The notes under the pieces: generated by a model
Told to the model about the DNA's origin: nothing
Seen by the model: the letters and a program-made list of their open reading frames with translations, nothing else
The model's database searches: none
Translations under genes and position numbers: made by a program
NCBI GenBank assembly: GCA_018266075.1
Contig: JAFEBB010000022.1
Span: forward strand, 1-64,000
Reading direction: 5' to 3'
Source of the DNA: Deltaproteobacteria bacterium
Lineage (GTDB): Bacteria; Myxococcota; Myxococcia; Myxococcales; SZAS-1
Length of the DNA stretch: 64,000 bases
Part shown: in pieces, positions 31,756 through 34,781 of the stretch
How positions within the stretch are numbered: position 1 is the stretch's first letter
How the letters are laid out: every line of letters begins with the position of its first letter

Positions 31756-32559
31756 ATGGGCGACGCGAAAGACACCTGGCTCGAGCCCGCACTGCTCGAC
31801 GCGGAGTCGCGCTGGCCGCAGGTGCGCTTCCGCTCCGACGAAACCCGCGCGGCGTTTTCGCGCACGCTGGATCGACGCTCGACCGATTCGCGCCAACCGG
31901 CTGCCGCAGCCGAGCTCCTGCTCGCGTCGGCGTGCGCCGCGGGCGACGAGGCCGCGCTCACCGCGGTCGACGCGCTGCTCGCGCTCGAGGTGGCGCGCGC
32001 GGTGCGGCCGATTGCGGCGGAGCTGGTCGACGACGTGGCCCAGCTGGTCCGCGAGCGGCTCTTCGTGGGAACGCCGCCGCGCATCGCCGACTACGCGGGC
32101 GACGGTCCACTCGGCGCGTGGCTGCGTGCGGTCGCGGTGAGGACCGCGCTCAACGCCAAGCGTCCCGCCGAACGCGAGGAGCCCATCGGCTCGACGCCGG
32201 ACCAGCCGCTCGCCGATCCCGACCCCGAGCTGGCCTTGCTGCGCGCGCGTTACCGCGAGTCGTTCCGCGCGGCGTTCGCTCAGGCCATCGCCGCGCTGTC
32301 GCTGCGCGAGCGCACCGTGCTCCGCCTCGCCACGCTCGACGGCCTGAGCCTCGCGCGCATCGGCGCCATGTATCGCAAGGACGCGTCCACCATCTCGCGC
32401 TGGCTGGCCGAGACGCGCCAGTCCCTCCTTGCTGCTACCCGTGCGCGGCTCGCCGCTGAGCTCGGCACGCCCAGCAGCGAGCTCGACAGCCTCATGCGCG
32501 CGGCGGACAGCGAGCTCACGGTGAGCTTGGCGCGGCTGCTGGCGTCGGCGAAGCCGTAG
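31756..32559 (+). CDS. RNA polymerase sigma factor, Sig-70_gmx1-like (TIGR03001 type)
   Basis: 267 residues. An N-terminal helical part with region-2 features (ELVDDVAQLVRERLFVG, YAGDGPLGAWLRAVAVRTAL) is followed by a region-4 HTH: AIAALSLRERTVLRLATLDG, then LSLARIGAMYRKDASTISRW. The arrangement and size match the sigma-70-like group known mainly from Myxococcota, rather than ordinary ECF factors. No anti-sigma gene of the usual kind is adjacent. The kinase encoded two genes downstream carries an H-x3-C-x2-C zinc-finger N-terminus like that of anti-sigma factors, so it may be the regulator. Confidence 0.82.
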   Translation: MGDAKDTWLEPALLDAESRWPQVRFRSDETRAAFSRTLDRRSTDSRQPAAAAELLLASACAAGDEAALTAVDALLALEVARAVRPIAAELVDDVAQLVRERLFVGTPPRIADYAGDGPLGAWLRAVAVRTALNAKRPAEREEPIGSTPDQPLADPDPELALLRARYRESFRAAFAQAIAALSLRERTVLRLATLDGLSLARIGAMYRKDASTISRWLAETRQSLLAATRARLAAELGTPSSELDSLMRAADSELTVSLARLLASAKP

Positions 32560-32651
32560 CGCCTTCGCGTGGAGAAGAGGCTTTTCAGCCACTTGCACCG
32601 CGAAATGCAAGGCCCTCCGCGAGCCCGTGTCGGCTCAGCAGGAGGAAGCCC

Positions 32652-33182
32652 ATGAACCGAAACCTGTCCTGTCTCGCTGCCGTCGCCGTCGTCCTCTTCG
32701 CCGTCCCCGCCTTCGCCGCCGAGGGCACCGCCCAGCCGCCGCTCACCCTCCGCGCTGGCCAGAACCTGGTGCTCGACGTCGCGGACATCTCGAAGATCGC
32801 AGTGGGCGATCCCGGCGTCGCCGACATCAAGCCCATCGGCGAGAACAGCCTGCTCGTGGTGGGCGTGAAGGAAGGCAAGACCTCCATCCGCGTGTGGAAG
32901 TCGAACAAGGAGGTGCTCACCTGGGAGGTGACGGTCACCCGCGCCGATGCGAAGTCGGCGCCCACGCCCGGTGCGGAGATCGTGAGCCTGAAGGTCGGCG
33001 CCAAGACCTCCAAGTCCGCGCCCAACCTCTCGCGCGTGGCCGTGGGCGATCCCGCGATCGCCGACGTGAAGCCCACCGACGCCGGCATCGACATCCAGGG
33101 CAAGGCGCCGGGCAGCACCACCATCGTCCTCTGGGTCGAGGGCGGGTCGCGCAAGGTGATCGAGGTGCAGGTGTCGCCGTAG
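32652..33182 (+). CDS. Secreted protein of two secretin/pilus-type N-domains (T2SS-T3SS_pil_N)
   Basis: 176 residues with a signal peptide (LAAVAVVLFAVPAFAAEG). The remainder is two copies of the short beta-domain found at the N-terminus of secretins and CpaC-like pilus proteins. Copy 1 spans 28-97 (LVLDVADISKIAVGDPGVAD then IKPI, LLVVGVKEGKTSI). Copy 2 spans 107-176 (SRVAVGDPAIADVKP then GKAPGSTTIVLWV). No secretin channel is attached, so it may be a free periplasmic ligand or interaction protein. The kinase 9 bp downstream bears the same domains outside the membrane, which links the two products. Confidence 0.85.
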   Translation: MNRNLSCLAAVAVVLFAVPAFAAEGTAQPPLTLRAGQNLVLDVADISKIAVGDPGVADIKPIGENSLLVVGVKEGKTSIRVWKSNKEVLTWEVTVTRADAKSAPTPGAEIVSLKVGAKTSKSAPNLSRVAVGDPAIADVKPTDAGIDIQGKAPGSTTIVLWVEGGSRKVIEVQVSP

Positions 33183-33191
33183 GCTTGGGCC

Positions 33192-34781
33192 ATGTCCGCG
33201 CTGCCTTCGGGCTGCCCCGACGAGAACGTGCTGCTCCGCGTCGCGCTTGGCACCAGCGCCGACGCGGAGCTCGCGCTCGTGGAGGCGCACCTCGACACCT
33301 GCGATCGCTGCCGGCGCACGCTCGTCGCCGCGGCCAGTGAAGTCGCCTCGCCTCCGCCCCGCGCTGCCGCCAGCCTGCAGCACGGCGAGCAGGTGGGCCG
33401 CTACGTCGTCGAAGAGATCCTCGGCGTGGGCGGCATGGGCGTGGTGTACGCCGCGCGCGATCCCAGCCTCGACCGCCGCGTGGCCATCAAGGTCATGCGC
33501 AACCCGGAGCACGAGCCGAGCGGCGCGCGGCTCCGACGCGAAGCGCAGGCCATGGCCAAGCTCGCGCACGCCAACGTGGTGCCGGTGTTCGAGCTGGGCG
33601 AGTGGAACGGGAAGCTCTTCCTGGCCATGGAGCTGGTGGAGGGCCAGACGCTGGAGATCTGGCGGCGAGGAAAGCCATCGCCGGAGCTCCTGGTGCAGGC
33701 CTTCATCGACGCCGGTCGCGGATTGGCGGCGGCGCACGCGGCGGGCGTGGTGCACCGCGACTTCAAGCCGGCCAACGTGCTCCTGGGCAAGGACGGCCGC
33801 GCGCGCGTGACCGACTTTGGGCTCGCCCGTCCCGACGGCGCACCGCTCGAGCCCCGCGCGTTCAGCGAGCCGATGCCGGTAGAGCTCACGCGCACGGGCG
33901 CGATGCTCGGCACCCTCGCGTACATGGCGCCGGAGCAGCTCGAGGGAAAGCCCGCCGACGCGCGAAGTGATCAGTTCGCGTGGTGCATCGGCCTTGCGGA
34001 GGCGCTCACCGGGAAGCGGCCGTTCGACGGGACGGACGCGGCGTCGCTGCACGCTTCGATCGCGCGAGGCCCGCGGCTCGACGGTGTGCCGACCGCGATT
34101 CGTCGCGTGCTCGCGCGCGGGCTTTCGATCGACCCGGCTTCGCGATTTCCCTCGATGGATGCGCTGCTCGATGCGCTCGAGGCCACACAGCGTCGGCGGA
34201 TCGCGCGTTGGGTTGCGGGTGGTGCAATCGCGCTGCTCGGCGTGGTGATGGCAGCGGTCCTCGTGTCCGCGCAGAAGCCTGTCGCCTCGCTCGACGCGCC
34301 GGCAGTCGTCGACGCGAGCGCGATGCGCGCCGAGCCGATGCCCGCCGACGGGACCATTCGCGTGACGGCAGGCGTCGTGAAGCGGCTGTGGATCCCCGGG
34401 CTGGCGCGCGTGGCCGTCGGCGACTCGGAGATCTCCGATGTGAGCGTCGCCGGTGAGAACGTGCTCGAGATCGTGGGCAAGCGCGCGGGACACACTTCTG
34501 TGGTGGCCACCAGCGGCACCGAGACGAAGCGCTGGGAGCTCGAGGTCGCCCCGGCGGGGCCCACGCGCTCGACGTTGAAGTTGCGCGTCGGGAATCAGGA
34601 GGTGATCGACACCGTCGGGACCGAGAAGCTGGCCATCGGCGATCCCGACATCGCGGACATCAAGCCCATCGGCGAGCGGCAGGTGCTCGTCGTGGGCATG
34701 AAGGCAGGAAGTACGGAGCTGACGATTTGGGAAGTTGGCGGCGGGCGGAGGCAGGTGGCGATCGACGTGGCGGGGCCGTAG
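33192..34781 (+). CDS. Membrane Ser/Thr kinase with anti-sigma-like zinc finger and two extracytoplasmic pilN domains
   Basis: 529 residues. Residues 1-50 hold H33-x3-C37-x2-C40, the zinc motif of anti-sigma factors. A complete PknB-type kinase follows: GVGGMGVVYAA, AIKVM, H188-R189-D190 in HRDFKPANV, DFGLARP, and MAPEQLEG in the activation region. One membrane helix (about 340-360, GGAIALLGVVMAAVLVSA) is followed outside by two pilN domains (about 387-450 and 457-529: LARVAVGDSEISDVSV, KLAIGDPDIADIKPIGE). They are close to those of the secreted protein just upstream. A sensor kinase that recognises the same kind of ligand and acts on the neighbouring sigma factor is inferred. Confidence 0.88.
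   Translation: MSALPSGCPDENVLLRVALGTSADAELALVEAHLDTCDRCRRTLVAAASEVASPPPRAAASLQHGEQVGRYVVEEILGVGGMGVVYAARDPSLDRRVAIKVMRNPEHEPSGARLRREAQAMAKLAHANVVPVFELGEWNGKLFLAMELVEGQTLEIWRRGKPSPELLVQAFIDAGRGLAAAHAAGVVHRDFKPANVLLGKDGRARVTDFGLARPDGAPLEPRAFSEPMPVELTRTGAMLGTLAYMAPEQLEGKPADARSDQFAWCIGLAEALTGKRPFDGTDAASLHASIARGPRLDGVPTAIRRVLARGLSIDPASRFPSMDALLDALEATQRRRIARWVAGGAIALLGVVMAAVLVSAQKPVASLDAPAVVDASAMRAEPMPADGTIRVTAGVVKRLWIPGLARVAVGDSEISDVSVAGENVLEIVGKRAGHTSVVATSGTETKRWELEVAPAGPTRSTLKLRVGNQEVIDTVGTEKLAIGDPDIADIKPIGERQVLVVGMKAGSTELTIWEVGGGRRQVAIDVAGP

Follow-up and report, generated by a model that had tools for sequence, protein, structure and literature searches.

Gene content and domain architecture of the locus

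Three adjacent genes on the forward strand of the window, by which we mean the whole 64,000-nucleotide stretch of DNA analyzed, encode a sigma factor, a secreted protein and a protein kinase; all three open reading frames were found where the original prediction had placed them. The first gene (31756–32559, +) codes for an ECF-type sigma factor of 267 amino acids, whose proposed resemblance to Sig-70_gmx1 was confirmed by the NCBIfam model TIGR03001 (201.2 bits, against a curated cut-off of 154.6). It is the only protein of this genome that scores above the TIGR03001 cut-off. The nearest sigma factor that we found (locus L161, 56–60% identical) adjoins a kinase containing SAF domains (PF08666, 51 bits) and not pilN domains.

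The second gene (32652–33182, +) is predicted to encode an exported protein of 176 amino acids, in which a hydrophobic leader is followed by two pilN domains (PF13629, 101.4 bits in two stretches, cut-off 23), as had been suggested. Its AF2 model contains two Ig-like sandwiches (pLDDT 86). Fold searches with the pilN domains returned Ig-like domains of many functions, and were set aside as a clue to a specific function because all matches were generic Ig-like or kinase folds. Among solved structures, the Tad secretins 8jvb and 8odn RcpA alone are convincing relatives of the protein at the sequence level. The domains of the trio thus combine an Ig-like shape with membership of the pilN family; they are not ordinary BON or Ig domains devoid of similarity to pil_N. 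The secretin domain itself (PF00263) was detected in neither the pilN protein nor the kinase, and is present in the C55 protein of the same genome.

The third gene (33192–34781, +) starts after a gap of 9 bp and encodes a membrane Hanks kinase of 529 amino acids, composed of a ZAS-like finger, a kinase domain, a transmembrane segment and two pilN domains. The finger region (33192–33335, +) has the anticipated H-x3-C-x2-C arrangement, with residues C8, H33, C37 and C40. The kinase domain (33402–34148, +; Pkinase, 130.9 bits) contains an intact P-loop, the VAIK lysine (K100) and the HRD and DFG motifs. It is followed by a long helix (34155–34274, +; residues 322–361 in the AF2 model), which according to hydropathy includes a single transmembrane segment and becomes hydrophobic from approximately residue 337. 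The ectodomain (34344–34778, +) consists of the two terminal pilN domains that had been proposed, at about residues 385–455 and 458–528 (PF13629, 74.8 bits, cut-off 23). The AF2 model of the whole kinase has a pLDDT of 83, with values mostly over 90 in the ectodomain. Comparison with PASTA kinases of the PknB/Stk1 type (NCBIfam NF033483) gave 219.8 bits, below the cut-off of 450 and within the kinase part only. When plasmid records were searched with the kinase, only generic kinases were recovered, none of which covered 80% of the query.

The finger of the window kinase scores slightly below the Pfam cut-off for zf-HC2 (20.5 vs. 22.2 bits), with relatives reaching 30.1 and 26.4 bits. A profile of the finger matches solved anti-sigma domains, including those of DdvA, ChrR and RsiW as well as 3hug_B (E-values from 9e-6 to 4e-3); the last, an anti-sigma partner, bears the description "conserved membrane protein" in its deposition. 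Residues H33, C37 and C40 are conserved in all 77 finger-kinases of a set selected with the finger model, and C8 in 33 of 35 Tad-type kinases. Six additional finger-kinase-TM proteins of about 930–975 amino acids (L277–L282) are encoded in the same genome with no recognizable sigma gene next to them, so that 6 of its 7 finger-type kinases lack a sigma neighbor, implying that the finger may do something else.

It had also been pointed out that the motif VAVGDPxIADxKP is nearly identical in the secreted protein and the kinase. The motif is indeed common to both; as a sign of pairing between them it was rejected, since it represents the consensus of the pilN family and is also found in the KilC-like secretin of the same genome (IAVGDPNVADVKP). 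The second pilN domain of the kinase is 44% identical to this secretin, compared with 41% to the first domain of the secreted protein. In a tree of pilN domains, those of the trios group apart from the secretin domains (SH-aLRT 99), and within the trio group kinase and exported domains are mostly separate. The first exported domain and the second kinase domain of the window are exceptions that fall near the secretins, in an alignment whose 71 columns resolve little.

Conservation of the trio and exchange of its outer domains

To follow the distribution of these genes, 79 relatives were searched for pilN domains and 195 Myxococcota genomes with a kinase profile; the profile search scored the best 8 candidates per genome, such that divergent pilN-kinases may escape. 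A total of 37 genomes contain a pilN-kinase: 34 that were tabulated, L143 (whose sigma gene was placed beside the kinase by a collection scan, L165, rather than by gene calling), one genome whose locus is distributed between the contigs of L091 and L078, and L284. Kinases without the sigma factor were looked for, and none was found among the best 8 candidates per genome: all 37 genomes have a TIGR03001 sigma. The expectation that the three genes co-occur and stay adjacent therefore holds for the sigma factor, apart from an insert in two genomes, and partly for the secreted protein, whose gene precedes the kinase in 33 of the 37 genomes and is missing as a separate gene in four. In L089 and L094, an IS66-like insert, named from its gene pattern, lies between the sigma and pilN genes.

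The four genomes that lack a separate pilN gene have kinases with additional outer domains: three, five and three pilN domains in L095, L142 and L143, respectively, and SAF plus pilN in L284. By the fusion ("Rosetta stone") argument, these kinases suggest that the exported protein and the kinase ectodomain act together.

Family f1, to which the window organism belongs, contains kinases with pilN tails, and so do several genera of family f3. Carriers include a strain labeled Myxococcus xanthus (AM003), M. dinghuensis, M. vastator, Pyxidicoccus caerfyrddinensis, Archangium violaceum and A. lansinium, and the order sigma-pilN-kinase is kept across genera and both families. SAF kinases accompanied by the sigma factor were found in four genomes of genus g33. 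Among 59 named sigma loci, which were chosen by the sigma factor, 45 have a finger-kinase at most two genes away, pilN types included.

Phylogenetic analysis of the finger and kinase regions united 34 pilN kinases with a single SAF kinase in one group (SH-aLRT 94), outside which fall 42 other sigma-adjacent finger-kinases. Inside this group, the window and SAF kinases form a pair (94), as do L095 and L142. The sigma tree reproduced both pairs and also a 31-member group common to the two trees (99), a topology that does not force a single origin. Taken together, the conserved adjacency, the agreeing trees, the fusions and the sigma-type promoter that links the genes (see below) support the proposal that they form one system, and we conclude that the trio is a conserved signaling module whose sensor derives from proteins of Tad/Kil pili.

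Several loci depart from the common arrangement. The kinase of L284 (L284:5050-7146) carries SAF and pilN domains side by side and adjoins a TIGR03001-like sigma gene. In a lineage resembling M. xanthus, a TetR-like frame on the opposite strand is situated between the pilN and kinase genes (L166:7452-7974). A record named Comamonas sp. KCTC 72670 (L168, BNCN01000009.1) contains a myxobacterial locus with Myxococcus-type neighbors and is probably mislabeled. In genus g21 (L096–L103), a lone gene with a single pilN domain occupies the chromosomal place of the genus g24 trio, with neither sigma nor kinase gene, and its domain clusters with the exported pilN domains in the tree. This gene is either a remnant or an older state, and its survival without sigma and kinase implies an independent role.

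The domains PF13629 and PF08666 are the periplasmic domains of partner proteins of Tad/Kil pili: pilN is found in CpaC/RcpA/KilC and SAF in CpaB/RcpC/KilB. The locus differs from these systems in that it has neither a secretin barrel nor pilus genes, and in that the domains are located on a kinase. In the same genome, a gene for a prepilin peptidase and genes for FHA proteins are clustered with that of a pilN-bearing secretin; a CpaB-like gene also occurs, beside genes for platform-like and FHA proteins (the platform and CpaB assignments were made by reading the sequences). A pilus ATPase fused to an FHA domain was observed in L084, a fusion that has been reported for KilF (PMC8460266). KilC has been stated to have no canonical N0 domain (PMC8460266), and Pfam detects pilN at this end of the secretin in the window genome. 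The Pseudomonas proteins RcpC and RcpA, the latter through its N-domain, assemble into a complex across the periplasm (PMC12307814). The presence of a Tad secretin was rejected as a predictor of the trio, because genomes without the kinase also carry pilN secretins.

A predicted promoter motif downstream of the sigma gene

An ECF-like motif, TGCAA[CGT]-N14-[CGT]GTGTC, was found upstream of whichever gene follows the sigma gene. The sequences AAC and GTC at such spacing are typical of ECF promoters. In the window, the predicted sigma-specific promoter (32606–32631, +) reads TGCAAG-N14-CGTGTC, resembles a −35/−10 pair and ends 20 nt upstream of the pilN start codon. The motif TGCAAC-N14-GGTGTC is present, with the window variant included, at 30 of 32 pilN genes (spacer of 14 in 29 and 13 in one); the two genes without it are additional copies located upstream. 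In L090 and L148, another pilN gene precedes the sigma gene and does not have the strict motif.

As the motif had been spotted by eye at pilN genes, it was then tested on eight loci that had played no part in its definition and in which the kinase directly follows the sigma gene (pilN-fused, SAF and SAF+pilN types). All eight have it, with a spacer of 14; seven match the strict form, and L095 has C in place of the first T. Taken over all 38 sites in related loci, a single spacer deviates from 14, with a length of 13.

The motif is rare elsewhere. Upstream of approximately 1,088 other genes in the fetched loci, the strict form was absent, the single hit belonging to a SAF kinase of the same family. 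Whole-genome counts are close to the control level apart from the sigma-linked site, which in the genomes searched is the one that recurs at a promoter position; in the window genome, this site and two others were found (control, one), and five further sites that we inspected are intragenic or coincide with a gene start. A wider regulon defined by the strict motif was rejected on this basis. The lone pilN genes of genus g21, which have no sigma, also lack the motif. The presence of the motif before the gene that follows sigma, the outcome at the eight loci and the scarcity of other sites suggest that the sigma factor transcribes the pilN and kinase genes from this predicted promoter. There is good evidence that few other strong promoter sites exist, with essentially one predicted site per genome. 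A single-operon regulon would be unusual, and targets with weaker sites may be missed. No motif occurs upstream of the sigma gene in 34 loci; simple autoregulation of sigma was thus rejected.

A candidate transmembrane sigma switch

A reasonable hypothesis is that the locus encodes a transmembrane sigma switch, in which the Hanks kinase serves as a membrane anti-sigma factor with feedback through its own promoter; we consider the probability of this reading to be about one half. The sigma factor would bind the promoter at 32606–32631 and transcribe the pilN and kinase genes, and would in this way produce both the exported protein and its own regulator. The kinase would span the inner membrane, exposing its Ig-like pilN domains to the periplasm and keeping finger and kinase domain on the cytoplasmic side. 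In the resting state, sigma might be held at the membrane by the finger, alone or together with the kinase domain, while the ectodomain would pack against the exported pilN protein and/or the pilN-type N-domains of a Tad/Kil secretin. A change in this contact could alter kinase activity and free sigma, giving more pilN protein and more regulator. What we infer in this scheme is that the finger binds sigma, in which direction control runs, and which ligand and phosphorylation target the kinase has. An anti-sigma role is favored by the kinase gene standing where the anti-sigma gene of an ECF operon is usually located, and by the match of the finger profile to anti-sigma structures. The six finger-kinases of this genome that lack a sigma neighbor, and the zf-HC2 score of the window kinase just below the cut-off, count against it. 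Membrane anti-sigma factors of the ZAS type, such as RsiW and M. xanthus DdvA, likewise have an N-terminal cytoplasmic H-x3-C-x2-C finger, a gene 3' of sigma and a sigma-type operon promoter; here, in contrast, a complete Hanks kinase is inserted between finger and membrane. The sigma family and the finger-kinase module are also shared with myxobacterial TIGR03001 pairs whose kinase has the architecture finger-kinase-TM-TPR. Those pairs have a TPR-rich sensor, mostly the order kinase-then-sigma and no secreted pilN gene, and no motif was seen in them. A more specific version, in which the anti-sigma kinase reads the assembly state of the prey-killing Tad/Kil machine through domains copied from the machine's own secretin (pilN, KilC) and alignment ring (SAF, KilB), the sigma factor has essentially one target operon and the response is the production of a pilN protein that possibly caps or tunes the machine, is tentative.

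The kinase may instead be an activator, with sigma inactive until phosphorylated and the finger acting only as a docking site. ECF43 sigma factors act in this way (PMC8999054, PMC13147305), and the pairs EcfP-PknT and EcfK-PknS likewise have a sigma gene beside that of a membrane Hanks kinase; all catalytic residues are present in the window kinase. In those pairs the kinase controls sigma, whereas for the trio the likeness lies in gene adjacency, from which similar control could be proposed by analogy. The trio also differs from them in its finger, its TIGR03001 family and its pilN/SAF sensor. ECF43 sigma factors have lost the acidic DAED motif of region 2.2 (PMC8103513, PMC8999054). A comparable loss, with uncharged Ser or Thr residues in place of the motif, was rejected here, as the acid at position 93 is retained in all 35 aligned sigma factors, which makes a replica of the EcfP switch less plausible, and a serine of the motif (position 92) is present in only 13 of the 35. 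The conserved Ser and Thr residues of the sigma factor are located in region 4 or at the C-terminus, several of them inside the DNA-reading helix, which also counts against activation by phosphorylation, and we regard this alternative as unlikely.

Even less likely, in our view, is a sensor of envelope stress or the cell wall, whose pilN and SAF domains would be generic Ig-like or glycan-binding modules linked to pili by ancestry only. Such a role would agree with the functional diversity of the Ig-like domains returned by the fold search and with the mostly separate clade of the trio pilN domains; however, the use of domains from two partner proteins, once within one kinase (L284), exceeds what chance use of Ig folds would give. 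The least probable of the alternatives is that the main targets of kinase signaling are FHA proteins of the Kil/Tad machine and that the outer domains of the kinase monitor this machine, with control of sigma secondary: Kil/Tad clusters of this genome and its relatives do carry FHA proteins and an FHA-fused ATPase, the ectodomains are built of KilC- and KilB-type domains, and a study of Kil in Myxococcus xanthus postulated an unknown upstream cascade via FHA proteins for assembly induced by prey contact (PMC8460266), but the constant linkage is with sigma and not with kil genes, and pilN Kil/Tad secretins are also found in kinase-less genomes.

A search of the literature, with most subscription papers beyond reach, did not turn up any account of kinases with pilN or SAF domains or of a sigma-linked finger-kinase. 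If the proposed sigma switch is correct, an ECF sigma factor, an anti-sigma finger and a Hanks kinase, previously described separately, would be combined with a sensor derived from a pilus machine. The occurrence of the kinase family in strain AM003 provides a testable candidate sensor of the Kil machine; the promoter motif could be used at once to build a reporter, and natural controls are provided by the loci of the fused, SAF and lone-pilN types. Elsewhere in the window genome, a sigma-like gene followed by one for a finger-bearing protein is located upstream of the Tad/Kil CpaB-like gene (L327:521-1791).
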